Positions 5,342-25,490 of a stretch of 41,881 bases of DNA are shown here, in pieces. The stretch spans positions 1 to 41,881 of IMG/VR virus record IMGVR_UViG_3300026319_000118. One strand, written 5' to 3'. The notes beneath the pieces are model-generated. The model saw only the letters and a list, made by a program, of their open reading frames with translations, made no database searches and was not told the DNA's origin. This stretch comes from a virus. Position 1 is the stretch's first letter. Each line of letters starts with the position of its first letter. Position numbers and translations under genes: made by a program.

Positions 5342-5411
5342 AACCACCTAAATAACTCAGGGATTTCCATTTGACAAGCGGATTTCTAGGCCTTAGGTGG
5401 TTGCCCACATA
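5342..5411. promoter_or_regulatory. Divergent promoter pair sharing one -35 box
   Basis: TTGACAA at 5371-5377 reads as TTGACA on the + strand and TTGTCA on the - strand. The - promoter has TATTTA (5354-5349) after 17 bases. The + promoter has only a weak -10 (TAGGTG, 5394-5399). Copies of AGGTGGTT flank the box as an inverted pair (5342-5349 on -, 5395-5402 on +), so one regulator could control both directions. The start codons are at 5341 (-) and 5412 (+), which gives very short or absent leaders. Confidence 0.6.
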
Positions 5412-6587
5412 ATGAACGAATTACCTGACTCCTTTCCGGATGACGAAATAGTAACCCCCTCAGCTCTTGAGGCAATCGCCCGAGCCGACATCAATCAACA
5501 GATCGCAACGGCAAAGCGTTGGCCCCGAACCCGAGATATTCATAAAATGCAGGAACGGATGATTGGCATGGCATGTTACAGCACCGAGGCTGCGGCTGAG
5601 TGTTTTTATGCTGTCCCGAAAGCTGGGCTAACGCTGTACGGTCCGAGCGTCCGATTAAGTGAAATAGCGGCCTATTGTTGGGGAAATCTCTACGCAGTCA
5701 GCCGGATCGTAGACATTAATCCCGCGAGCCGGATCGTAACCGCTCAGGCTGTTGCGTGGGACCTTGAGTCAAACGTCAAGGAGGGTATAGAGTACACGCA
5801 GCGGATTACTATCAAAGGCGAGGACGGGATCAAGATCGCCACACTGGCCGCAATCGCTCTAGCTGGCCGCAACGCGAAACTGAAGGTGGTTCCACGTGTT
5901 ATCTGGTACCCAGTCTATGAGCGGTGCCTAGCCACGGCTCGCGGGTCCGCTATTCCGCTAGGTGCTCGGGTAGCCGAGATGATCAAAGCTTTCGCCGTGT
6001 TCGGCGTTACCATAGACCGCATTCTGTCAAAATTAACCTATGAAGCAATCAACCAAATCACCGAAGACGACCTCCAAATGTTGCGCGGCTACTACACCGC
6101 AATCAAAGAAGAGGCGAGCAGTGCAGAAAGTATCTTCCCAGTTATGGGGAAAACTAGCACAACCACAGAACCCAACAGAGAAGCTTCTAGCGGACCTACA
6201 CCAGAGCCTAGCGCTTCTAGGCGCCGCGGTCGTCCGCCTGGATCACGACGGAATGATGCAGGTGATGCCACCACACCAAGCCAGGAGTCTGATGATCCAG
6301 GTCAACCAACTCAGCAAGGAGCTATACCTCCAGTATCTGAGTCCATTCAACCCACCAGCGCCCAACCTCCAGAGCCGCCGGAAGACAGCAAAGCCAAAGT
6401 CATAGCCGAACTCCGCGACCTCCTAGCGACCAACCAGAAAAGCGAACCAGGGCTGATGGCGAAAATGCAGGAGTGGGGTTTTGCAAAGAACTTGGACACT
6501 CAGCCGATTACGCTAGACGATTACCCAGAAAACACGCTCGTCCAGGTTGCCGCTAAGTGGGAGAAGATCCAGGATAAGCTGCGATGA
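5412..6587 (+). CDS. Putative single-strand annealing or recombination protein, 391 aa
   Basis: The N-terminal about 210 residues form a compact domain with the phrase AGLTLYGPSVRLSEIAAYCWGN; the next part is a disordered Pro/Ser/Thr/Gln-rich linker (about 240-320) and then a short C-terminal helical domain. The layout of a globular core with an acidic tail, and its position one small gene upstream of a RecB/Cas4-like nuclease, match phage annealing-protein and exonuclease pairs such as RecT/RecE. I cannot assign it to RecT, Erf or Redbeta by motif. The ATG at 5412 is preferred; a GTG at 5397 would lie inside the promoter. Confidence 0.5.
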   Translation: MNELPDSFPDDEIVTPSALEAIARADINQQIATAKRWPRTRDIHKMQERMIGMACYSTEAAAECFYAVPKAGLTLYGPSVRLSEIAAYCWGNLYAVSRIVDINPASRIVTAQAVAWDLESNVKEGIEYTQRITIKGEDGIKIATLAAIALAGRNAKLKVVPRVIWYPVYERCLATARGSAIPLGARVAEMIKAFAVFGVTIDRILSKLTYEAINQITEDDLQMLRGYYTAIKEEASSAESIFPVMGKTSTTTEPNREASSGPTPEPSASRRRGRPPGSRRNDAGDATTPSQESDDPGQPTQQGAIPPVSESIQPTSAQPPEPPEDSKAKVIAELRDLLATNQKSEPGLMAKMQEWGFAKNLDTQPITLDDYPENTLVQVAAKWEKIQDKLR

Positions 6588-6781
6588 AAGAACTACTTAA
6601 ATTTGTTAGCAATGACGGCACGTGGGTTATTCAAGAAAATACGAATGGGGGGATAACGTTGGAACGAGAGGTCCCCATGAGCCTGATGCCGAATAAGATA
6701 TCCTTCACCAAGGAAGATTTTGGCTCCTTAATCGGGTTACTGGGGAAGTTCGAACAAAAACTTTATGCTTCGGGCAAGTGA
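6584..6781 (+). CDS. Unknown small protein in recombination operon, 65 aa
   Basis: It starts in an ATGA overlap with the putative annealing gene and overlaps the nuclease start by 17 bases. It appears to be a small beta-hairpin plus helix protein (GTWVIQEN, then ITLERE). Its location suggests an accessory to the annealing and nuclease pair, without direct evidence. Confidence 0.6.
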   Translation: MKELLKFVSNDGTWVIQENTNGGITLEREVPMSLMPNKISFTKEDFGSLIGLLGKFEQKLYASGK

Positions 6782-7814
6782 AGTCTGGCGAGTACGCCAT
6801 TGTCTAGCTAGTGTGCGGCTTAGTGAAGAGGTTAAGGACACACCGCAAGAAGCACCGATCGGCGAGATGGCCGAACGCGGAACCGCTGAGCACGAGGAGT
6901 TAGCAACGGGCAAAGATTCCTATCTCCAACATCTAGCGGCCAAGGAAATCGAGGCGTGGGCAGAAGGACACTCTTACAAGGTCTATGTTGAACAAGAACT
7001 CTATCTACGCCGCGATGATCTTGTGCCCTATTTTGTCGGGCACCCGGACCGGTATGTGATCCGGGATGATCATGCGCTGCTAGTGATTGATTTCAAGACG
7101 GGTCCAATCTTAGAACTCGACTCCTGGGCTGATCAAATTAATAGCTATTTTGCGCTCATTTATGAGGCTCATGGATGCCCTAGTAAGATAAATCTAATAG
7201 TTATCAGCAAATATCACGGTGTCTTTAGGATTATTGCCGATATTGCCGACGTAGTTACAAAGGTTATCGAGCAAATCGCATTTCTCACTCGCCACACAGG
7301 CGACAGAGTTCAGCCCCTCCCCGGGGCTTGGTGCCGCTATTGCCCAGCCCGCCTAATATGTCCGGTTGCCGAGAAATATAATACTCCATTGGTTCTTTCC
7401 GGCCAACCTTTGCCGACTGGCGAAGCTGGCGCGGAAGTGCTCGCTCGGCTTCACATTCTCAAAAAGCTTGTTGCAGAAAAGATTAGCTACTACGAGGATC
7501 TGGTCCGCTTTCAGGGCCCCGAGACATTGGCTAATAAGTGGGTAGTAGGTAAAGGTAAGCGCATTGGTGAGATATCCTCGCTTACTAAAGCCCTCCCGCT
7601 TCTCTCCCAGCATTTCAGCCATTTTATGATGACCGCCTCGTTACTGGAAGCGGTCGGGACGGTTTCTTATGCTAAGCTGCGCGACCTTTTAGCCAAGGAG
7701 AAGGGTTATAGCGCAAAAGACGCAGAAGAAGCGCTCAAAGACATCCTGGGAGAACTGCTGACTTTCAAGGAAACTAAGGGGTCAATCGAAGAGGCGCCGA
7801 AACAAATCGAATGA
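6765..7814 (+). CDS. RecB/Cas4-like PD-(D/E)XK nuclease, DUF2800 type, 349 aa
   Basis: Motifs are visible in order: Cys13 near the N-terminus, GTAEH (39-43), GHPDRY (92-97), VIDFKTG (107-113), and a C-terminal cluster Cys190, Cys193, Cys199. The D95 and D109-x-K111 residues fit the PD-(D/E)XK metal site. The one-plus-three cysteine pattern matches iron-sulphur nucleases of the AddB and Cas4 kind. The family usually acts as a DNA exonuclease in recombination or end processing. Residues after about 210 are helical and lack an obvious motif. It is coupled to the upstream putative annealing gene. Confidence 0.8.
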   Translation: MLRASEVWRVRHCLASVRLSEEVKDTPQEAPIGEMAERGTAEHEELATGKDSYLQHLAAKEIEAWAEGHSYKVYVEQELYLRRDDLVPYFVGHPDRYVIRDDHALLVIDFKTGPILELDSWADQINSYFALIYEAHGCPSKINLIVISKYHGVFRIIADIADVVTKVIEQIAFLTRHTGDRVQPLPGAWCRYCPARLICPVAEKYNTPLVLSGQPLPTGEAGAEVLARLHILKKLVAEKISYYEDLVRFQGPETLANKWVVGKGKRIGEISSLTKALPLLSQHFSHFMMTASLLEAVGTVSYAKLRDLLAKEKGYSAKDAEEALKDILGELLTFKETKGSIEEAPKQIE

Positions 7815-10182: not shown

Positions 10183-12276
10183 ATGAAACTTCTTGTTGCT
10201 CTCGCTGCTTCCTTACTGGCCTGTCTCGGGCACGCTCAAACCGTAAGCGTAATCGGTAACACCGGCCAACCCACAACCACTGCAGGGAAAGTGCCGTTTC
10301 TACTTTCAGGAATCACGGTAGATGGATCTAATAAAATTTATACTGTACATGACTGGGACGAAGCTCAGGTCACTATTCGAGTCTGGGACCCGTTAACCGG
10401 CAAAGTGTTATCTGGTTCCGGGCATGTGGTACCAGAACTTTGCGAAACGATCGCAGTCGAACCGGATGGCAGTTACGCGTACGTAGGCAGTTGGCACGGA
10501 ACAGAGAACCCGCCGAACTTCAGCTTGGATATCTGGAAGGTCAGAATGACAGGGACTCCGATCGCTGTGAACTTCACAACTGCTGGGCAAAAGATCCAAG
10601 TCGATACTGGAAGCGCAACCGGATTGTTACCAATAGTTCTATCAGGGAATGATCTCTGGGTGGCGGATCATGACGGAAATAAGCTTCTGGAGTATGACAA
10701 GAACACCGGTTCATTGCTTCAGACAATCTCGGTTCCATCGCCGCTTGGGCTTGCCGTTGACGGATCTGGTAATATTTGGGTTAGCACTAATCTTACCAAC
10801 ATCAATGTTTATTCGCCGAGCGGCACGCTTTTAGGAACACCGATCACCAATCGAGTGAATATCTATTGGCTAGCAATCAATGGAGCAAGATTAGAAGTCT
10901 GGGACTCAAGCAATGCAGTTATCTGGGCTTATACAATCTCTGGGGTCACGGCCACCTATATCAATTATGTCGGGTTATTGGAAACACCAGGGGACCCGAA
11001 TACGCATCGGTTTAGTAAGTACGGAGCGATCGCCCTGGATAGCAATGGTCATTTAATCATCTCGAACCATATAGGGATTAGTGGTGCCGGAGGGTCCCGC
11101 CTAGAGTCGCTTCAGGTTTCCAATTACGGCGCGATTTGGAAAGTTACCGACACGGAATTCTCGAGCAACGCTGCCTATACGAGTGCGAATCCGAATCAAT
11201 TGCTTTCGTCAAATCGGCAAGCCTATTCAATTAATCGCACCACCCAAACCTCGGCATGGTTAGGTTGCGGCCAAAGCGACACTACCTATTGGGGAGCAAT
11301 AAATGCAGCCGACGGGCAGATCAAAGCTCTCACGCTCGGCGGTAATGACTTTTTGTTTTTCCCTCACACTTGGAATGGATGCGCAATTTACCGGGTTATC
11401 CCCCAAGCTGGCATAGGACCTAAATTACAATTGGCATCATGCCTTGGACTAAGTAATCCAGGGGCAGATGGTTCATTTAATGGCTCGATGTGGATGTGGT
11501 CCTGGCAGGACACGACAGGAACAGATGTTGTGCCTAATGGTCCCGGACTTACCATCGACCAGAGGCCACCAAACGCTACGGTGCAGGTGTCCATTATATC
11601 AAACGTAGTAGACGAGCAGGGGACAATCTGGCTCTCCCTGATTCAAACCTATGCTCCTCCATTTACGGAAGATTCAGCCGTTTGGAAGGTACCGCTTAAT
11701 TCGATCAATTCGGCTGGTAATCCCGTGTATCATTGGGCAGATAGGACCGAAGTCATTTCGGAATCAACCTTGCGAACAGCGTTTAATCAACCACGCCCGG
11801 CGACATTAAACGTCATGCAAGTGACCTACAGCCCGGTTGATAACCTGATCTATACGTTGCTCTATATCCCGGCCCTACCGGGAGCAGCCCAAAATGGAGG
11901 GACGATCTGGATGGCTGGCGATGTACTGGCTGCCTGGACGCCATCCGGGATGCTTGTCTGGTCTACTATTCCTACATATCTCACAGTCGGCATGACGTGT
12001 GTCAGCGGCGGTAGCGGCGTGTTAATCGGCCAGAATGTTGATAACTCGGGAGCTGTAAGAGGTGGAGTAATCCACCGTTATGCGTCAAATGGCGTGCTCC
12101 TTGCCACTTATATGCCACCAACGCCTCAATTTGGTACTGTAGGAACGTCGAACAACCCAAGCGGTCGTTTTGATGAGTTCGGAGCATTGAACGCACAGAA
12201 AGCACCTAATGGGACAATCGATATTTTCGCAGAAGACAATATTAACGGACGCGTGTTCTGGTACAATCAACCGTAA
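10183..12276 (+). CDS. Exported NHL/SMP-30-like beta-propeller protein, 697 aa
   Basis: The ATG at 10183 opens a clear Sec signal peptide (MKLLVALAASLLACLGHAQ, cleavage after HAQ or AHA-like site). Repeated blades follow, such as YVGSWHGTEN, GNDLWVADHDGNKLLEYD and AVDGSGNIWVSTN, the texture of NHL or SMP-30 propellers. Such domains bind proteins or glycans or act as lactonase-like enzymes. A TTG 36 bases upstream would spoil the signal peptide. It is a single + gene between - units; its stop abuts the stop of the convergent gene with no gap. A secreted auxiliary role or acquired host gene is inferred. Confidence 0.7.
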   Translation: MKLLVALAASLLACLGHAQTVSVIGNTGQPTTTAGKVPFLLSGITVDGSNKIYTVHDWDEAQVTIRVWDPLTGKVLSGSGHVVPELCETIAVEPDGSYAYVGSWHGTENPPNFSLDIWKVRMTGTPIAVNFTTAGQKIQVDTGSATGLLPIVLSGNDLWVADHDGNKLLEYDKNTGSLLQTISVPSPLGLAVDGSGNIWVSTNLTNINVYSPSGTLLGTPITNRVNIYWLAINGARLEVWDSSNAVIWAYTISGVTATYINYVGLLETPGDPNTHRFSKYGAIALDSNGHLIISNHIGISGAGGSRLESLQVSNYGAIWKVTDTEFSSNAAYTSANPNQLLSSNRQAYSINRTTQTSAWLGCGQSDTTYWGAINAADGQIKALTLGGNDFLFFPHTWNGCAIYRVIPQAGIGPKLQLASCLGLSNPGADGSFNGSMWMWSWQDTTGTDVVPNGPGLTIDQRPPNATVQVSIISNVVDEQGTIWLSLIQTYAPPFTEDSAVWKVPLNSINSAGNPVYHWADRTEVISESTLRTAFNQPRPATLNVMQVTYSPVDNLIYTLLYIPALPGAAQNGGTIWMAGDVLAAWTPSGMLVWSTIPTYLTVGMTCVSGGSGVLIGQNVDNSGAVRGGVIHRYASNGVLLATYMPPTPQFGTVGTSNNPSGRFDEFGALNAQKAPNGTIDIFAEDNINGRVFWYNQP

Positions 12277-16269: not shown

Positions 16270-16441
16270 TGGCTCCGTAGGTATCGTGAGTAGGGCAGAT
16301 CATTTCGCGGTGTTTCATGGCTTCCGGAACATCGGCGTTAGTATTCGTGGATGACCATGTAACTCTCTCTACTAGCCTTTGGCCACAAATCCGACAATAT
16401 CCCAAAGGGAAAGGTGGCCAAGCAAAGTCTAAAGTGTTCAT
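16259..16441 (-). CDS. Small zinc-binding protein, 60 aa
   Basis: CRICG near residue 16 and a later CPTH phrase could form a CxxC and CxxH zinc site. The gene starts in an ATGA overlap with the large ejection-type gene. No family is recognised. Confidence 0.55.
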   Translation of the reverse strand: MNTLDFAWPPFPLGYCRICGQRLVERVTWSSTNTNADVPEAMKHREMICPTHDTYGANER

Positions 16442-19122
16442 TGGTCAGGCTCATTAAAGGCTGCTTTGGTTTTCTTGCTCGCTAGGGGCCAATATTCGTC
16501 TAATTGCTCTTGGTTCATCTTGCGCAGCAGCATGAGTTGCCGGTCCTCGGTCAGATCTCTGAAATCGGTATGAGCAATTGGCTCGTCAGCGTGTTTGCGG
16601 GCTAGCTTCAGCATATGTTGATCTGCGCCGTGCGCTATGTAATCCTCCTCGGTCTTAGCGATTAGGTCCTGATCGTCACCTTGTAAGGCCTTCATGTAGC
16701 TGGATTTAGCGTCCATTTTAGCAGCTTCATTCAAGGTCGGATGGAATTGCGACTGGTCCCGCTTCATAGTCAGGATCTCGTTTTCGAGCCCGGTGCGCGT
16801 AGTCCAACCTGGTGCTTGCTGGAAGCCCATGAGACCCATAACCACTTGTTTTGGTTCGTTTAGGGTACCCCTCTCATCGAATAACCCCTGGAATGAGATC
16901 GGTTCCAGCATGTCTTTGCCCAGGTAAGCAGCTACTTGTCCGGTTCTCTCCCATAACCTTTGGAAGAACGGATCCCGTGTATCATTCCATTGGATGATGT
17001 CTCGCCCCATGAAATCCTTGTTGTTCATGACATGGAAAATCGCGGCAAGCCCAGGATTCATCTTGTTCCCAAAATAGCGGCTCAAAGCGTTGACTTCCGC
17101 CATCCCTGGGGTGGCGTTCTTCTGATGTTCTTCCATAGTGTGCTCCCAGATACTCGCCCATTCGCTGGTCCAGTATGGTGTACGCACTCGCTCAGCTTCG
17201 CCGTTTGGTTTTCTGCCGACCTTCGGGAAAAACCAGTCCATTGCCTCATTAGCTGAGCCCCCAACAAGCTGACTAATGGCCCCCATCGAAAGAATCGACA
17301 TTAAGTGATAATTCACCCCGTACATTAAACGATTCGAGAGGTTTGGAGCTCGCCCTTCCGCGCCCTTGGTTTGCCAGTATTTCATGATCTGGTCAGCATG
17401 GGCAAGGTTATCAGTTAGATCGACAAGCATCCCGCCTTGCACCCGCCAAAAACCTAGGTTCCAGCCCATCGAGAGCGGTAACGCTAGCCCTAACATTTTC
17501 CAGTTCTTGTTCCAAAAAAGGTTGTCATACGCCATCTCACCGAATCGGCCTTCAGTCTCTATGCCGATATTAGACATGTCGACTTTCCAGTTCAGGGAGC
17601 CCCGGTAAGCTTCACCGTGTTTCTGGAGCAGAGTGTCGCGACGTGCAAGAAAGGCGGATATTTTAGCTAGAGGGATAACCCTTCCGAACATGAACTCTTG
17701 GTACGGCTCAGCTTTTGCAATCGCATAGCCGACAGACAAGGCATCTCGCACTTTCGCCATGTTCGCGCCATTTTTAAAGATCGCATCACTCATCTGACTG
17801 CGGCGTTCTGTCCCCATGAAAGGCATAAGCCCACCCGCCAAGATATCGCTTAGATCAGTTTTTAACTTATCAGGGAGCTTTTCCCAACCTTTACCCGTTC
17901 GAAGCACGTCGAGCAGGTTATGATAGGTCCGATAAGCGTCTGCCATCGGGAAGACACCGCCCACAACCGGGATAGATGCCTTAATAGCGTCCAAAATATC
18001 TTTCCCTGTCGCGGTCCCCTGGAGCGAGCGTTGCATTGCGGTCGTAACGACCTCGCTCGCGCTAATACCTGCAATATGGATCGGGTGAAATACACTGAAC
18101 GACAGTTTCACCCCGGTCGTGCCTTTAAACGCCCGCGCGAAGACGATCGCAGGCATCGCCAGAGTGTTATAGATCGAAGTCATATCAAAAGCGTTATGGA
18201 GAACGCCTTCGACGCCCTTGCGGACATACCAAACCTTTTTATCCGGGGTAGAAAACCGGGTAAACCCGTTGCGGTTAGCGAGTGCATCGACCTCTTCATC
18301 ATTGGCTTTGGCTGCCGATCTTACTGCTTCTGCCGGGATCGCCAAGTTAGACTCATGAAGAGACTCCATGGTCTGAACCTGCTCAATCGCTGTTATGGCC
18401 TGAGCATGGTAAGCCATTAAGTTACGTTCCGGGTTATAGCTTTTAGGCGTCAGCCCAGCAGCCTTGGCATCCGCGAGCGTAGGGAAATGCCGCGTTTTAG
18501 TAAATCCCGGGGGTCGCCACCCGTTTTGCCATTTCTCCATAAAAGCATTAACCTCGGTTTCCGTATTCTTAAACGCATGGCGGAAATAGTTGTCGATATG
18601 GCCAAAAGGGACTTTGTTCGCCCGTAACATGCTTTCGTCGTAATCGTACCCGCGCCGCACATAGTCGAACATCTTATCCATTGTGGCGTCACCGGTGGAT
18701 TTGCCTTGTTCTCTTAATGTCTGATATTTTACGATTTCATCGTCTGTGTACTTGCGCCACTTAGCTTCACGGCGACCACTCTCATGAGGCTTACGAAAAA
18801 TCTCGTGCATGTTATCATCCAAGAGAATCGCCTTTAAAAGCCCATACTGCATGGTGGTGCTTACGCGTGAGTTAGTCCCCCTTGTGAGCGCCTCGGTTTG
18901 CCTTGCGGCGCCTCCCCGTGCTCCGGGATCAAATGTCCTAAGGTATAAATCCACCCAATCGTTCACTAATTTTTGACTGCGGATCGATGCAACGGTGGAT
19001 GAAAAGGCTTTGCGCACAGCGGGCAGACCAGTCCAATTCACGTCGCCCTCACGTCGCGCTTGTTCAGCGCGCAATTTCTTGAGCCGTTCGCGTTCTTCGA
19101 GACTACAGGGATTTACGGGCAT
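16438..19122 (-). CDS. Large internal virion (ejection) protein, 894 aa
   Basis: A very long, mainly helical protein with a basic N-terminus. The central part has hydrophobic or amphipathic segments (about 310-345 and 370-400, then 545-575). It sits directly after the transglycosylase-bearing gene, the usual place for the largest ejectosome protein of short-tailed phages (compare T7 gp16, although sequence similarity is not evident). It also resembles phage large polyvalent proteins in style. A role in forming the DNA-ejection channel is inferred from size and order. Confidence 0.55.
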   Translation of the reverse strand: MPVNPCSLEERERLKKLRAEQARREGDVNWTGLPAVRKAFSSTVASIRSQKLVNDWVDLYLRTFDPGARGGAARQTEALTRGTNSRVSTTMQYGLLKAILLDDNMHEIFRKPHESGRREAKWRKYTDDEIVKYQTLREQGKSTGDATMDKMFDYVRRGYDYDESMLRANKVPFGHIDNYFRHAFKNTETEVNAFMEKWQNGWRPPGFTKTRHFPTLADAKAAGLTPKSYNPERNLMAYHAQAITAIEQVQTMESLHESNLAIPAEAVRSAAKANDEEVDALANRNGFTRFSTPDKKVWYVRKGVEGVLHNAFDMTSIYNTLAMPAIVFARAFKGTTGVKLSFSVFHPIHIAGISASEVVTTAMQRSLQGTATGKDILDAIKASIPVVGGVFPMADAYRTYHNLLDVLRTGKGWEKLPDKLKTDLSDILAGGLMPFMGTERRSQMSDAIFKNGANMAKVRDALSVGYAIAKAEPYQEFMFGRVIPLAKISAFLARRDTLLQKHGEAYRGSLNWKVDMSNIGIETEGRFGEMAYDNLFWNKNWKMLGLALPLSMGWNLGFWRVQGGMLVDLTDNLAHADQIMKYWQTKGAEGRAPNLSNRLMYGVNYHLMSILSMGAISQLVGGSANEAMDWFFPKVGRKPNGEAERVRTPYWTSEWASIWEHTMEEHQKNATPGMAEVNALSRYFGNKMNPGLAAIFHVMNNKDFMGRDIIQWNDTRDPFFQRLWERTGQVAAYLGKDMLEPISFQGLFDERGTLNEPKQVVMGLMGFQQAPGWTTRTGLENEILTMKRDQSQFHPTLNEAAKMDAKSSYMKALQGDDQDLIAKTEEDYIAHGADQHMLKLARKHADEPIAHTDFRDLTEDRQLMLLRKMNQEQLDEYWPLASKKTKAAFNEPDQ

Positions 19123-21830
19123 GGGTTTTTAAGAATTTCCTCCATAAGCTCTTGATCCTCCATGTTCTCGATATCTTTCTTGGCACCCTCTTTTTCTGGC
19201 GGCCTTATCCCCATGTAATCATCCATTGTATTGGCTTCTACCTTCGGGGACTTTTGGGTTACAGCCTTTAATTGATCCGCTACCTTTTTGTTCTGCTTTG
19301 TAAGCTCTGGCTCTGCTAACAGCGTTCGGGCTTGGGTAGCATATTTAGCGGCGGTATCAAGGTCATCATTATCCCTTGCGTTCTGGGCTTTTTCTTGTGC
19401 CTCTTGGGCTGGGGGCCGGCGTGCTAAGGCTTGACTCGGGTGCGACGGCTCTTCTGGCTCAAAATGCCTAAAAACTCCACCCGGCCTAGCCGCGATATCT
19501 GGGGTGCTGAATGGATCTGCCCTTAATGACGCTTCTTCTGCCTCTGGATTAATCCCAAATTTCGGCTCTAAATAGATGGGTGCCTTTAATAGCGAGCCAG
19601 GTTTCTTTGTTCCGGCATCCTCGGCCTCGTAAGCCTTTCCCGCTTGTTCTTTTTCCTTAGCGTACCGCTCCGGGGAACCTTCTAAAGCGTATCGTTGACG
19701 TAGGGTATCGGTTGTTTCTAAGCCTCTAAGCTGGTTTCTCTCAGCAATATCCCCATATTCCGAAGGGGTGACTTCCGGCTGAATGGTTTCGCGCTTAATC
19801 TGGATAACGTCACCAGGATACTCTTCGGAAGGAGGACCAAGGTTTTGAGTGAAGCGGCGCGCCCCCCTGGTATCTGGTGGTTCTATCCCAACATTGCTTG
19901 GGGTTAAAGGCTCCATGGCGGCTAAAATCATATCTACCGCGTTCCGAGTTGCTTTTCGGTTCACTTCTGCGGTTGGATCGCCTGCAATAATTTTATTCGC
20001 TTCTTCCGGAGTCGCCGCAATAATATCGCTAGAGATACCCATTGCTTGACGGACCTCAGGGAGTGCTTTAAAACACCTGGACAAGCTCTCAACAGTGAGA
20101 CCCAATGCCCGGCCAGTACCACCAATCGTCGCCATCGTAACAGATGCATCTAGAACCCCACTTAATGGATCACGCCCAGCCGCTACATTCTGAATCGCTT
20201 GATTTGTACCGCCGACTAACGCTCCTGTTCCTACCGACTCTCCTGTTTGAAGCGCGAGATGACCTACCCTATTCCAAAGTGTTCCAACAATTGCTGGACC
20301 TCCTCGAACAAACGCTAGGGCCATTAACTCGTTACCGGGAAACTGAAGAAGAGTCGCTTGATCCGCCCGCTGCCTCAGCTCATCAGCCGACATTCCCGGA
20401 TTATTAGCCTGAATCGCTGCTTTATTCTCCGTGTATAGAGTGCTTGCGAGCCCAGTCTCGCGCCATACCGGGATACCAAGCTGAAACGCATCCGCTGGCA
20501 GCCGTGAGATCGTCCGCGCCCATTTCGCTTGACCCGGCGGGAGTTTATTCGGGGTTTGGGCGTCTAATTGCCCTACCATCTTGTTCAACCCGGCGATACT
20601 TTTCTCGTATTCGGCTTTCTTACCCAGAACCTCGTAGGCAGCGTTTAGGTCGCCTGACAATTGGATAGGATCATCTGAGGGCTCGTGCTGACTATTGGGC
20701 TGGTTCCAGGCTTGGTTAAAATCCCGAGTCCGTTGGTCAGGAGTCATCTTTTGGTACGAATTCATTATGGCACCAGGATCGGCGCCAGGGTAAGCCTTGG
20801 CCAAAATGCCTTTAATAGCGGGTTCAGCGTGATCAATTGCACGCTGCTGGGCGCTTGAGATGCCCCACAGAACGCTCGACTCCGTTCCTGGCGCTGCTTC
20901 AGCCAGTGCCTCGTTCACGAAGCGCTCAGCCTGCGTCACGGCGTCTGTAGGGGGCTTTAAATTCCAGGCGAACTGCTGTTTAGTGAGTTTTTCGGGGTCT
21001 AGCTCTTTATCGGCTACCTTTTGGTCATAAATCATGTCCGATAAATCCTTATCGGAGTAACCAGCCCATTCAGGATGTTGATCACGGATCTGTTGGAGCG
21101 GGTCTTTTTGCTGTTCCTTCCAGTCATTAATGATGGCTTCGCCGTCGGGCGACTTGGCCGCCTGGGCAAACTCGCCCTGTGGCATAGTTGGGGCGATAAC
21201 CTCACGCATTTTCCCGATTAAGCTGTCTTCAGTGCGGTTATCTTCCGGGAATTGCGACCGGTATTTCTGTACCAGACTTTGCTTTTGCTCCTCTTCCTTC
21301 TGTTGCGCTTCAAAAGGAGCACCCTCGGCTAACGCCTTTTTATATCGCTCGTCGTCATCCTTAAACCCGAAGGATGAGGTATCTAGGTGCTCTGGGAGTG
21401 GTGGGGCGTTGGAGCTTGGTTCTCCGCCTATCTGGTTGTAATAACGAGAGATTCCTGCTGCTTCGGTTGAGTTAGTTCCATACGGATCATTTGACGCCCC
21501 AACCGGTGAATAAACAGCCGCTATTTGGTCAATCGACTTGGTTCGTATATCGCCATATGGCCCTTTTGGGTCGACCATTAAAGCGACTTGCCTGTCGATT
21601 GCGGCTTTTGCCGCGTCTAAATTATGGAAATGAGTAGGGCCGCCGCCTCCTGGGCTGATCCCAAGTGGATTTAAATCCCCAGGGTTAACATTTTCCTGAC
21701 GTGTGATCGACTTTAATAAGGCCGGGTCAACATTATACTTCGCCGCAGCCTCGTCTAGGTACGGGTCCCACCCGGTTACCTCAGTTGGAGCATCCCCTCC
21801 ACTCGTCGTATCTAGCCAATTGCCGCTCAT
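19113..21830 (-). CDS. Virion lytic transglycosylase and ejection protein, 905 aa
   Basis: Residues about 20-135 form a soluble lytic transglycosylase domain: YNVDPALLKSITRQEN with catalytic Glu46, then a Gly-rich GISPGGGG turn and a late SRYYNQIGG motif. This enzyme cuts peptidoglycan so that DNA can cross the wall. The rest is a long helical and disordered region with a Gly/Ala-rich membrane-like segment (about 500-590) and a Lys/Glu-rich C-terminus. It overlaps both neighbours by four to ten bases and is part of the ejection protein set. Confidence 0.75.
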   Translation of the reverse strand: MSGNWLDTTSGGDAPTEVTGWDPYLDEAAAKYNVDPALLKSITRQENVNPGDLNPLGISPGGGGPTHFHNLDAAKAAIDRQVALMVDPKGPYGDIRTKSIDQIAAVYSPVGASNDPYGTNSTEAAGISRYYNQIGGEPSSNAPPLPEHLDTSSFGFKDDDERYKKALAEGAPFEAQQKEEEQKQSLVQKYRSQFPEDNRTEDSLIGKMREVIAPTMPQGEFAQAAKSPDGEAIINDWKEQQKDPLQQIRDQHPEWAGYSDKDLSDMIYDQKVADKELDPEKLTKQQFAWNLKPPTDAVTQAERFVNEALAEAAPGTESSVLWGISSAQQRAIDHAEPAIKGILAKAYPGADPGAIMNSYQKMTPDQRTRDFNQAWNQPNSQHEPSDDPIQLSGDLNAAYEVLGKKAEYEKSIAGLNKMVGQLDAQTPNKLPPGQAKWARTISRLPADAFQLGIPVWRETGLASTLYTENKAAIQANNPGMSADELRQRADQATLLQFPGNELMALAFVRGGPAIVGTLWNRVGHLALQTGESVGTGALVGGTNQAIQNVAAGRDPLSGVLDASVTMATIGGTGRALGLTVESLSRCFKALPEVRQAMGISSDIIAATPEEANKIIAGDPTAEVNRKATRNAVDMILAAMEPLTPSNVGIEPPDTRGARRFTQNLGPPSEEYPGDVIQIKRETIQPEVTPSEYGDIAERNQLRGLETTDTLRQRYALEGSPERYAKEKEQAGKAYEAEDAGTKKPGSLLKAPIYLEPKFGINPEAEEASLRADPFSTPDIAARPGGVFRHFEPEEPSHPSQALARRPPAQEAQEKAQNARDNDDLDTAAKYATQARTLLAEPELTKQNKKVADQLKAVTQKSPKVEANTMDDYMGIRPPEKEGAKKDIENMEDQELMEEILKNPCP

Positions 21831-23038
21831 CCGAATGGCCTCGATGGATCAAACCCCTCATCCTCTTCACTGATACCAGGGTGCGGGTTGTACTCCTTGC
21901 CGCTCCCTGGTCGACTCCTGGGAGCAGGTTCCGGTGAACCGGGCTTAGGGAGTGGCCCTATTGTGTCCGGGCTGAGTTTCCTGATATTGTCTTTCGTCTG
22001 CTCGTCCAATTTACCAGGATTGTAAGGAATATGCGGAGGTTTTTTCGCCGCTGTATCTGCCGCGTCCTTCTCTGTTGCGGTCGGATTAAGCTCCCTCAAA
22101 TGCGCGACATGCCAATCGTACCAGCGCATCCCAGGGATCTTTTGTAACTCCATGTAAGTCGCGGTCTGGACATCAGGGTTATTTGAATAAAGACCTGCCG
22201 CAAGCCTTGGGTATTTCCCGGCTGCATCAGATTGATAAAGCGACCCTTCCTCAGTCCCAAAGAATTTGCCGATCGCGTTTAGCTTATTGATCACATTATC
22301 GCCCGCGTCTTTATTAAGCTTCTGTAGATTTTCCAGCGTTTGGGTCAGAGACTTCAAGTCATTAAGATCGGCGGATTGGGCCGTAGTTTCGTCCTTATAC
22401 GTCTCTGCCATGTCTTTTATTATGGCGATCTTCTCGGTCACGGTAGAGTTCCGATCAGCCATGACGGCTTTATAATGGTCTTCGCGTTCCTTGTTCGCCT
22501 CATGAACTGCGGTTACCTGCTCTCGCCAAAGAGCGTAGTTTTCCTTAGCCCCCTCTTGATTGCCGTGTTGAACGGCCTGGAGCCCGTTTGCGAAGGCTGC
22601 CATCCCGGAACCGTGCTTGCCCCCAAATGCGATAGCTATAGGGATAGCGAGCAGCGAGTACCCAAGAATCGCTTTTAGATTTTTCTGCTTATCTCCATTT
22701 GGGTCCGGCATTTTAGGATATGTCATCAACTCAGGCATTGGATTGGCTTGCCGGAATTTCTCTTGCTCTTGCAAAAGCCGCATCTCTTCGGACCGCATGC
22801 TCTCAAAAAACTGATTCGATTTCTGAATATTTGCGTCCGCTTTCTTAATCTGTTGATAGCCCCATTCCGCTAGGTCTTTAGGCGTCGCCCCGGCTTGCTG
22901 CTGTTGTGGCTGCTGAGGGTCTTGTTGACCAACGGCTTCTGCGCGAGGTGCTGAACCTGGAACAATTAAGGGTCCGGGTGGATCCGGGTCCGGTTGATTG
23001 ACTGGGCTAACTTGGAAATCAGGGGTGTCATCAGCCAT
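21827..23038 (-). CDS. Probable internal virion protein, 403 aa
   Basis: An N-terminal Pro/Gln-rich disordered part, then coiled-coil helices (about 55-95 and 165-260) around a short hydrophobic segment (about 125-150, SLLAIPIAIAFGG), and a Pro-rich C-terminus. Composition and position between tail and transglycosylase genes match ejection proteins. No family is recognised. Confidence 0.55.
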   Translation of the reverse strand: MADDTPDFQVSPVNQPDPDPPGPLIVPGSAPRAEAVGQQDPQQPQQQQAGATPKDLAEWGYQQIKKADANIQKSNQFFESMRSEEMRLLQEQEKFRQANPMPELMTYPKMPDPNGDKQKNLKAILGYSLLAIPIAIAFGGKHGSGMAAFANGLQAVQHGNQEGAKENYALWREQVTAVHEANKEREDHYKAVMADRNSTVTEKIAIIKDMAETYKDETTAQSADLNDLKSLTQTLENLQKLNKDAGDNVINKLNAIGKFFGTEEGSLYQSDAAGKYPRLAAGLYSNNPDVQTATYMELQKIPGMRWYDWHVAHLRELNPTATEKDAADTAAKKPPHIPYNPGKLDEQTKDNIRKLSPDTIGPLPKPGSPEPAPRSRPGSGKEYNPHPGISEEDEGFDPSRPFG

Positions 23039-23624
23039 AAATCACTTTCATTGCATATCCTAGATGCATTAGAGCGTTGTTCGTGCTCGCCTTAATGTAC
23101 GGGTAGAGTTCAGCAGGTAATGAGTTAATAATCTCAAGTAATTCCTTAGCATGCTCTCGGTCTTTGATTGCATGTAGCCGCAGGAATTTGAACAAATCCT
23201 TACCGTGTAGTTCCTCTAGTTTCTCCACTAATTCGATAGGCGTAGGATCAGCCTCTTGAATCATCATATAGCCAAGGAGCGATACCGGGTGCCGGTGCTT
23301 CAGCAGATAATACTGAGTACCAATCATGGCCATCGCGATCGGGTTCGGATCACAGAACGTCACGTCTAGCCCAGCAGATTTAAGGTCGTTGGCTAATATT
23401 GGAACCTCGTCACGCTCCTCCTCTAAGTGTTCGTAGAAATAACCGCGAAGGTCAAAAGCAGGAACGCTCATTACCGCAGCCTCTTCTAGTAATTCCTCGC
23501 TCGCCACGCAACAGTCATAAAGAAACTTCAGGTTGTGCACGACCGCCGCACGGTCCGATAAATCCCAGGTAAGCGTTCGTTTGAACGCTCTGATGTTATC
23601 CAGTAATTGGCCTGAAAATGTCAT
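23031..23624 (-). CDS. Haem-oxygenase-like (HDO/TenA/PqqC-type) protein, 197 aa
   Basis: The all-helical sequence carries the metal-ligand pattern of iron-containing haem-oxygenase-like redox enzymes. An EHLEEERDE helix (Glu65 to Glu73) comes first, then MIQEADP with Glu124, and a C-terminal HAIKDREH with His151, Asp155 and His158. In the family the first helix usually supplies Glu and His; here the His position appears to be Glu73. Members include diiron oxidases and oxygenases such as UndA, BesC and CADD. The length (about 200-230) is normal. It lies in the late operon between a Gly-rich virion protein and an ejection protein, eight bases overlapping the latter. Substrate unknown. Confidence 0.65.
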   Translation of the reverse strand: MTFSGQLLDNIRAFKRTLTWDLSDRAAVVHNLKFLYDCCVASEELLEEAAVMSVPAFDLRGYFYEHLEEERDEVPILANDLKSAGLDVTFCDPNPIAMAMIGTQYYLLKHRHPVSLLGYMMIQEADPTPIELVEKLEELHGKDLFKFLRLHAIKDREHAKELLEIINSLPAELYPYIKASTNNALMHLGYAMKVIYG

Positions 23625-23626
23625 GG

Positions 23627-25012
23627 TTAGAACCCGTCGATAATCCCGGCGATAGCGCCGACTATACCACCAATGCTGCCGAGGAGGCCACCACCGCCAG
23701 CGCCAGCCGCGGTCGCACCTAGTCCTATTCCAGTTTCAGCGAATCCAGGAACAGCAAACCCCGCCCCAGATGCAGCAGCAGCCCCAGCAGCCCCACCGGC
23801 CCCGCCTAATCCCCCAGCCCCGAAAATAGAGCCTAAGGCTGAAAGCCCGCTCGATAGGCCTTGCGAGCCTGCTTGCGCGTTGGCAGCTGCCAGGCTAGCC
23901 GCGCTCTGCGCGGTGGCCGTTTCCGCACTAAGTATATTGCTAAAAGCCTGCAATTGTAACGAGTACGGCGCGGTAACCGCACTCATAAACGTATTCATCA
24001 GTTGGTAGCCGGTCGTCCCTTCGGTAAAGAGGCCAGCCTGTTCCTGGGCGCTCATAGAGCCGATAGTCTTCACCATATCGAAGAGTTGCTGTTGCGCCTG
24101 TAGCCCGAGCTGCGTCGTCCCGAGTTCTCCGGTGAGAGACAATTGATTGGCGTTAAGAGCCATTTGCTGACCAGACTGGCTAAGGGCGATATCCCCTTGG
24201 AAGAGGTGCTGCCAGTTCTGGGCCATCTGCATGTTGCCTTGCTGGAGTTGACCCTTTGCGGCAGTCCCGGCCAAGCCTGCCTCCTGATTCAACTGCGCTG
24301 CCATCGTCGAACCAGTCAACCCTTCTGCGCCTAAATTCTGTGCAATTTGTGCTTGACCAGATTTAGTCTGCTGCTCGATCATCGCGTTTTGCTGCGGGGT
24401 GAGCCAGTTTGGTCCAAACTGAGCTATATCCCCTTGAATCTGTTGTTCTTGAAGGGTGATCGGCGCTTGACCAGCCGAAATCTGATTCTCAAGGTTCGTG
24501 ATATTGCCTTGAAACGTATCCTGGTAGTTCTCGATCGACCTGGGCGAGGTACCCGGAGGCGTCATCCCGGTTATCTGCTCCATTCCTCCTAGTGCACCGC
24601 CAAAGGTATTTAGGAGATTAGGGAACCCGCCGGGTCCGCTTCCGCCACCGCCGCTAGTTCCTCCACTCCACCCCCAAGGCGTAGCACTCTGACTTCCAGG
24701 AGTGCCACCAGCTCCAGGCGTCCCGTAGGTCTGGGCGTTCAGCCAAGGGTAAGCATTCCCCATCACGCCGCTATTCCAACTAGGCCCGAAATAGCCGGTG
24801 CCGGGACCAGCTAGGCCAGCAGGCGAGGTGACTTGCGGACCTTGGCCGCCAGTCGCATAGTTCATTGCCCAGTTCCCAAGGGAAAACGGGTAATTTAAGA
24901 ACTGGCTTTCGTATGATCCAATATTGCCGAGTTGGCTGGCTGTGTCCATCATCCCTGGAGGGATCGCCGCTTGTGGAGCACTGCCACCGCCTTTTCCACC
25001 ACCCTTACTCAT
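23627..25012 (-). CDS. Gly/Gln/Ala-rich internal virion protein, 461 aa
   Basis: The N-terminus is Gly/Lys-rich (MSKGGGKGGGSAPQ). The middle (about 165-330) is a long Gln-rich helical region. The C-terminus is a hydrophobic Gly/Ala repeat (about 395-460, GGIVGAIAGIIDGF at the end), like pore-forming tails of T7 gp14-type ejection proteins. AGGG lies six bases before the ATG, and the ATG is in a 14-base palindrome shared with the opposite-strand gene at 25011. Confidence 0.6.
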   Translation of the reverse strand: MSKGGGKGGGSAPQAAIPPGMMDTASQLGNIGSYESQFLNYPFSLGNWAMNYATGGQGPQVTSPAGLAGPGTGYFGPSWNSGVMGNAYPWLNAQTYGTPGAGGTPGSQSATPWGWSGGTSGGGGSGPGGFPNLLNTFGGALGGMEQITGMTPPGTSPRSIENYQDTFQGNITNLENQISAGQAPITLQEQQIQGDIAQFGPNWLTPQQNAMIEQQTKSGQAQIAQNLGAEGLTGSTMAAQLNQEAGLAGTAAKGQLQQGNMQMAQNWQHLFQGDIALSQSGQQMALNANQLSLTGELGTTQLGLQAQQQLFDMVKTIGSMSAQEQAGLFTEGTTGYQLMNTFMSAVTAPYSLQLQAFSNILSAETATAQSAASLAAANAQAGSQGLSSGLSALGSIFGAGGLGGAGGAAGAAAASGAGFAVPGFAETGIGLGATAAGAGGGGLLGSIGGIVGAIAGIIDGF

Positions 25013-25018
25013 GAGTAA
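25005..25018. promoter_or_regulatory. Perfect palindrome containing two opposite start codons
   Basis: TTACTCATGAGTAA is a perfect 14-base palindrome. Its centre holds the ATG of the + gene (25011) and the ATG of the - gene (25012), so both proteins begin Met-Ser. It could bind a dimeric regulator or may simply reflect an insertion event. Confidence 0.6.
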
Positions 25019-25490
25019 CCCTACTGAAGATTTTTATACTATCGCGTTGCCTTGGTTAGCCCAAAAGGTACTCGACAAGGCCCATTTTACAATGTGGGTT
25101 GACCCGGCGACAGGCCGAAAATGGGACTTCAGGCTTTGGCTAATTTGGGCTGCGCGACATGGATTCATCCATTTCTGGCCTAATATGTCTTGCCCTACCG
25201 GGGGAATCGTCGCTCGCCGCATATCAATGGCTCAGCTTAAAAACTGGCGTAATTATTCTAAATCTGAACTCCTTTATGTCTATGACCCGGATGGCGATGG
25301 GGCCTGGATCGATTTCCTATGGGCCCCAGGTCAACAACTAAAAGCGGCTGAAGCAGTTGAAAAAACCGGAATCAAATGGGTCGGCTGGGATCATCGCAAA
25401 ACCGGGGCTCCACATCTTAAAACGCTGAAAGCGGTCAAACGTTTGATCAGCCTGGGAGATAAACGGTCCTCACCGATCCGGCTTATCTAG
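25011..25490 (+). CDS. Opposite-strand gene inside late operon, unknown protein, 159 aa
   Basis: The frame is convincingly protein-like, rich in Trp and aromatic residues (HGFIHFWPNM, YVYDPDGDGAWIDFLWAPG), with a basic C-terminus. It fills exactly the space between two - genes: its start shares a palindrome with one and its stop shares the palindrome CTAG with the other (25487-25490). No other frame there is plausible. It has no visible ribosome-binding site and no clear promoter upstream. The context is that of a moron, an independently acquired and expressed gene. Function is unknown. Confidence 0.7.
   Translation: MSNPTEDFYTIALPWLAQKVLDKAHFTMWVDPATGRKWDFRLWLIWAARHGFIHFWPNMSCPTGGIVARRISMAQLKNWRNYSKSELLYVYDPDGDGAWIDFLWAPGQQLKAAEAVEKTGIKWVGWDHRKTGAPHLKTLKAVKRLISLGDKRSSPIRLI

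Follow-up and report, generated by a model that had tools for sequence, protein, structure and literature searches.

A gene with the heme-oxygenase-like dimetal oxidase fold at a fixed site of a podoviral ejection module, and its possible action on the C-terminus of a neighboring virion protein

The window analyzed here is a whole virus record of 41,881 bases carrying podovirus-like late genes, among them those for a terminase, a major head protein, a gp4-like protein and tail proteins. In the late-gene order, the gene for a 461-aa protein is followed by the gene under study and then by genes for 403-, 905- and 894-aa proteins (Table 1). The gene under study starts 2 nt past the 461-aa gene, and its stop shares 8 nt with the 403-aa gene. 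A first-pass annotation had described a 197-residue heme-oxygenase-like metal enzyme encoded among DNA-ejection genes; both the ORF and its setting were correctly drawn, and the setting recurs in 26 loci. Family searches with the 905-aa late protein gave no convincing match. Elsewhere in the window, a 396-aa ORF at 5397-6587 (+) matches phrog_3657 (unknown function; 1.7e-41) and adjoins an exonuclease-like ORF at 6765-7814. An opposite-strand ORF at 24924-25490 (+) lies where relatives have a GNAT gene and has neither a Pfam match nor a clear PHROG match; nor could any link to GNATs be detected for it (hhalign probability 0.1). Homologues of this ORF occupy the matching place, likewise on the opposite strand, in two relatives of the window, L002 (13468-13827, -) and L103 (5940-6533, -). 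L002 also carries, amid its tail genes and opposite the late-gene strand, a 175-aa ORF resembling an HNH endonuclease (11562-12089, -).

Table 1. Features of the window around the phage HDO gene, with coordinates, strand and the basis of each assignment
Feature	Coordinates	Strand	Basis or remark
Phage HDO gene	23031..23624	-	ATG 23624, stop 23031, intact ORF, 197 aa; Pfam PF14518, AlphaFold, fold searches, homologues
Codon of Glu70, predicted metal ligand 1	23415..23417	-	Alignment to MboA Glu86; invariant 54/54
Codon of Glu73, ligand 2 position	23406..23408	-	His in 51/54; MboA His89
Codon of Glu124, predicted ligand 3	23253..23255	-	Alignment to MboA Glu143; Gln123 just before
Codons 151-158, HAIKDREH, predicted ligands 4-6 (His151, Asp155, His158)	23151..23174	-	Invariant 54/54; MboA His172/Asp176/His181
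461-aa Gly/Gln-rich virion/ejection-type protein, C-terminus ...IIDGF; proposed partner/substrate	23627..25012	-	Slot adjacency in other loci
Codon of C-terminal Phe461 of the 461-aa protein; putative modification site	23630..23632	-	Phe/Tyr association
403-aa ejection-type protein, P22 gp20 / T7 gp15 position	21827..23038	-	Analogy with phiGT1 and PMC8954989
905-aa large late protein, probable ejection protein	19113..21830	-	Position and size
894-aa large late protein	16438..19122	-	Weak LPD38 (large polyvalent protein) match, E=6e-4

The 197-aa product almost certainly has the seven-helix fold of the heme-oxygenase-like dimetal oxidases (HDOs). It matches Pfam Haem_oxygenas_2 (PF14518) at E=2e-6 and 28.2 bits, 0.7 short of the curated cut-off of 28.9, and the same family matches 25 of 31 relatives at E<=0.01. 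An AlphaFold (AF2) model built on a 31-sequence alignment reached a mean pLDDT of 96.9 and a pTM of 0.91; a two-sequence model was poor (pLDDT 49) and was set aside. HDO-, CADD- and TenA-type structures top the fold-search list and cover all 197 residues, bearing out the fold proposed by the first-pass annotation. With 193 to 197 residues aligned by VIA-align, the best structural match is Sden_3740 (PDB 3DDE; Z 21.3), followed by CADD (Z 19.9, 19.5 and 19.3), TenA (approximately 19) and diferric HrmI (18.7). A 37-row profile searched against PDB sequences likewise places Sden_3740 on top (2e-27), with MboA at 2e-9 and CADD at 6e-5. Sden_3740 shows the same pattern of ligands but is a cellular HO-fold protein of unknown function with His at position 73. 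Ferritin-like diiron proteins are built as a four-helix bundle with two ExxH motifs. This assignment was rejected because HO-fold chains matched the product over its full length and the Ferritin Pfam match spanned 31 residues at E=0.037, below cut-off; IIGP and similar weak Pfam matches were also rejected.

A dimetal cofactor is probably bound by this fold. The predicted ligand columns on the three core helices are all His or carboxylate in the window protein (E70, E73, E124, H151, D155 and H158), and by profile alignment they fall on Glu86, His89, Glu143, His172, Asp176 and His181 of MboA (chain residues numbered after a constant offset of 25 to reach the published ligand numbers), which are its Fe ligands (PMC13185094). 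Glu73, Glu124, His151, Asp155 and His158 lie where the first-pass annotation had placed them; it had missed Glu70, which supplies the sixth position in an E70-x-x-[H/E]73 arrangement. Five of the six canonical HDO ligands are thus present (E70, E124, H151, D155, H158), and these five are invariant in 54 aligned homologues, as they are across an alignment with a mean column identity of 34%. A motif scan (see below) imposed columns 110, 112, 113, 116-119 and 124 on 19 loci, so that none of these columns, E124 included, is independent evidence there; E70, D80, Y106, H151, D155 and H158 are free of the scan pattern. Within alignment A10, four of the seven invariant columns not imposed by the pattern are ligands (hypergeometric probability, approximately 4e-6).

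The sixth canonical ligand, a His, is Glu73 in the window. The replacement of a first-helix His by Glu had been noted earlier, and it proves to be confined to three members: position 73 is His in 51 of 54 sequences and Glu in the window, L002 and L103 only, which form one clade (97/91 in the tree). The same three also have Gln at position 123, which is Leu in almost every other sequence, and no Trp76. Given this restriction to one clade with correlated neighbors, His73-to-Glu is most simply explained as a single derived event, predicted to yield a 2-His/4-carboxylate set. The canonical 3-His/3-carboxylate motif is intact in 23 of the 26 viral members. It is a common HDO feature and not a defining one: the E-H-X-H-D-H pattern occurs in approximately 85% of HDO groups, and FlcD is an HDO despite two missing ligands (PMC11363339). 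A review describes 3H/3C and 3H/4C HDOs, with 4C/2H sites given for ferritin-like enzymes only (PMC13108848), and no description of a 2-His/4-carboxylate site in HDOs was found in the literature searched.

Related genes occur in other viruses. L002, a relative of the window with a 49%-identical tail protein, encodes a 49%-identical HDO in the equivalent place. A first alignment-based scan of genome contigs found no HDO, and an alignment including bacterial relatives recovered five further viral HDO loci. A scan with the motif HxHPxxLLGYxxxxE gave 28 matches, of which 25 are true HDO loci, six of them already known; the other matches (L111, L120, L122) were rejected as chance hits of the pattern. 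The viral total is therefore 26, comprising the window and 25 other viral contigs. All 26 fall in one clade of the tree (98/100), and by sequence they are a phage-specific clade of the HDO superfamily. No HDO was found in approximately 80 capsid relatives (42-46% MCP identity) in the sequence searched or in PHROGs. Querying 50,697 phage records by tblastn with four of the HDOs (window, L097, L104, L106) gave no match, nor did a BFVD search with the HDO at E<0.001.

In all 26 viral loci the HDO gene sits between the gene for a virion/ejection protein, which it follows, and the next late gene. These neighbors are kept at near-zero or overlapping spacing in 25 loci, the exception being L119, where a small ORF intervenes, and the junction of upstream gene and HDO is usually a stop/start overlap of the TGATG type. 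Upstream proteins match phrog_6121 (virion structural protein) in 19 of 25 cases and phrog_4287 (DNA ejection protein) in two; those of the window type matched no family, nor does a leave-out HMM link them to phrog_6121. In at least 10 HDO loci, as in cultured phages, the upstream gene is itself preceded by a GNAT gene. The gene order of the HDO loci is that of the P22/phiGT1/Mx8-type ejection module (gp14-like GNAT, structural protein, internal virion proteins), as seen in phiGT1 (tail tube B, gp14-like acetyltransferase, structural protein, internal virion/injection proteins) and in Mx8. In contrast, HDO is absent from the 11 cultured or annotated phage relatives examined: the slot is empty (-14 to +9 nt) in nine, and Mx8 and Mx9 carry an unrelated ORF of 119-120 aa there. 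Because the slot is filled in 26 loci and lacks HDO in these relatives, the podoviral ejection module carries HDO as an option, always at a single fixed position. Phages without it manage without the enzyme, which is therefore not essential to the module. Several other small or accessory genes lie at these loci. The ORFs in the slot of Mx8 (p55, L136:4999-5358) and Mx9 (p89, L168:3508-3870) encode hypothetical proteins. Short Gln/Met-rich ORFs (85-121 aa) directly follow HDO in L107, L117, L121, L129 and L130 and precede it in L119. The GNAT gene at L104:6356-6925 (phrog_4470, acyl-CoA N-acyltransferase) may be a second protein-modifying enzyme of the module.

The protein encoded upstream ends in an aromatic residue in every HDO-positive locus (26/26; Phe in 18 and Tyr in 8), after a hydrophobic Ala/Met-rich stretch in an otherwise variable tail. 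A terminal Phe or Tyr is found in only 4 of 194 (2%) other ORFs of these loci and in none of 11 HDO-negative homologues (Fisher 1e-9 if independent, although close relatives in both the HDO-positive and HDO-negative sets reduce the effective numbers). Nucleotide overlap as the sole cause of the Phe/Tyr codon was rejected, since the spacing varies from -4 to +7 nt and the upstream protein of L119 is still Tyr-terminated despite the intervening small ORF. The association could instead be a lineage trait, as most HDO-negative homologues have a different C-terminal (S74-type) domain. Alternatively, a bare C-terminal Phe could act as a docking or membrane-insertion signal.

The nearest cellular HDO sequences come from Rhizobiaceae and Acidobacteria (loci L088, L091-L100 and L158-L165), and their genes adjoin one for a small ribosomal peptide or protein. 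A small peptide gene lies near the HDO gene in all ten Rhizobiaceae loci examined (L088, L091-L096, L098-L100; L143 is L091 repeated) and in eight Acidobacteria loci. In the peptides a leader-like helix is combined with a short tail whose hydrophobic end is conserved (ICGF or ICGL in rhizobia; PNFPV, PNIGI, AIPI and similar in acidobacteria). The motif GTQYY..H.HP..LLGY is conserved in the Rhizobiaceae HDOs and in L097, a locus where a DUF4135 (LanM-type) gene is also present. Unlike the phage genes, these are chromosomal or plasmid-borne, they keep His73 and Trp76, and their predicted partner is a short leader-like peptide. The small ORFs near the cellular HDOs (L091:5464-5664(-), L097:5521-5721(+), L159-L165) resemble an undescribed RiPP class, and two of the small peptide ORFs gave no convincing match against Pfam.

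MboA, the HDO of the mangotoxin pathway (PDB 9YPI, 9YPL and 9YPM), is the best-matching characterized HDO and shares with the phage protein all six Fe-ligand columns, including the E-x-x-H spacing. In MboA, the C-terminal carboxylate of a tripeptide binds Fe1 and the C-terminal residue is oxidized (PMC13185094); in other HDOs the substrate likewise supplies Fe1 ligands (PMC13108848). MboA thus acts on a peptide C-terminus, as we propose for the phage HDO. The two differ in that the phage partner gene encodes a virion protein, whereas MboA sits in a biosynthetic cluster; in that MboA has a reductase partner, MboB, whereas no dedicated reductase was seen next to the phage HDO gene; and in two residues, MboA His89 being Glu in the window subclade and MboA Tyr82 being His66 in the phage HDO. 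CADD, the self-sacrificing 4-aminobenzoate synthase (PDB 1RCW, 8VA9), resembles the phage HDO in fold, and its profile match extends over nearly the whole domain, but in CADD three extra residues lie between ligands 1 and 2, and the enzyme draws on its own Tyr and Lys. The phage HDO shows no sign of such self-modification.

The Phe/Tyr association, the fixed slot, the bacterial sister genes beside peptide genes and the C-terminal chemistry of MboA all speak for a protein substrate. As the best explanation, with a probability of roughly 45%, we propose that the phage gene encodes an HDO that modifies protein, its target being the aromatic residue at the C-terminus of the neighboring virion/ejection protein. 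In this mechanism, three helices would bring E70, [H/E]73, E124, H151, D155 and H158 together around a dimetal center, probably Fe/Fe or Mn/Fe, that would activate O2. The enzyme would be made with the upstream virion/ejection protein, directly after it. Its substrate would most likely be the C-terminal Phe or Tyr of that protein, with the terminal carboxylate binding Fe1 as in MboA, and oxidation of the last residue could then be a hydroxylation, a desaturation or an oxidative decarboxylation, taking place before packaging or in the course of it. Slightly less probable is a more specific version: a diiron (or Mn/Fe) oxidase with RiPP-type ancestry that oxidizes the terminal aromatic residue of a virion ejection protein ahead of packaging, using in the window subclade a predicted 2-His/4-carboxylate site.

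The first-pass annotation had suggested a metabolic gene or a scaffold re-using the fold, and the comparative data favor another reading over either. As a free metabolic (auxiliary) HDO, the protein would act during infection by oxidizing some small cellular molecule, for instance an amino acid or a fatty acid, and its place in a late operon would be incidental. Most characterized HDOs take small molecules, amino acids above all (PMC13108848), and the ligand set is enzyme-like; we nevertheless consider this role unlikely, as the slot is fixed in 26 diverse phages with translational coupling, the association with the C-terminus of one virion protein is perfect, and the bacterial sisters lie beside peptide genes. 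An assembly chaperone or scaffold, in which the HDO fold would hold the hydrophobic upstream C-terminus soluble until packaging and any metal would be structural or vestigial, fits the Ala/Met-rich, Phe/Tyr-terminated tails, the insolubility of the analogous T7 pore protein gp14 on its own (PMC8954989) and the changed ligand of the window subclade. A pure scaffold need not retain its ligands, however, and the invariance of five of them at such low overall identity makes this role rather improbable.

A protective function is slightly less probable again. DtpC, an HDO-domain protein, limits H2O2 in desiccated Acinetobacter, and its ligand mutants fail (PMC13232832); a phage HDO could similarly limit peroxide- or metal-driven damage to the virion or the newly ejected DNA, but this leaves both the C-terminal Phe/Tyr association and the peptide-gene sisters unexplained. 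Other chemistries on an HDO-like fold are very improbable, although TenA and heme oxygenases reach Z 17-19 against the model. TenA thiaminase II needs a conserved catalytic Cys and heme oxygenase a proximal His in its first helix. Alignment of the phage proteins and their relatives reveals no conserved Cys column (at most 7/31) and, in alignment A10, an N-terminal helix without a conserved His; conservation is instead seen at the dimetal ligands. These features argue against a TenA-type thiaminase, a PqqC-like enzyme and a true heme oxygenase alike.

HDOs are known from natural-product pathways, and no phage HDO is described in the literature searched; a search of the open-access literature for heme-oxygenase-like or iron-containing redox enzymes in phages returned no relevant paper. 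If the proposed protein-modifying role is correct, some phages would post-translationally oxidize their injected machinery, using an O2-dependent enzyme tied to one virion protein. It would also provide a rule for genome mining, namely an HDO gene beside a neighbor with a conserved C-terminus, that would reach from phage structural genes to the discovery of rhizobial and acidobacterial RiPP families.
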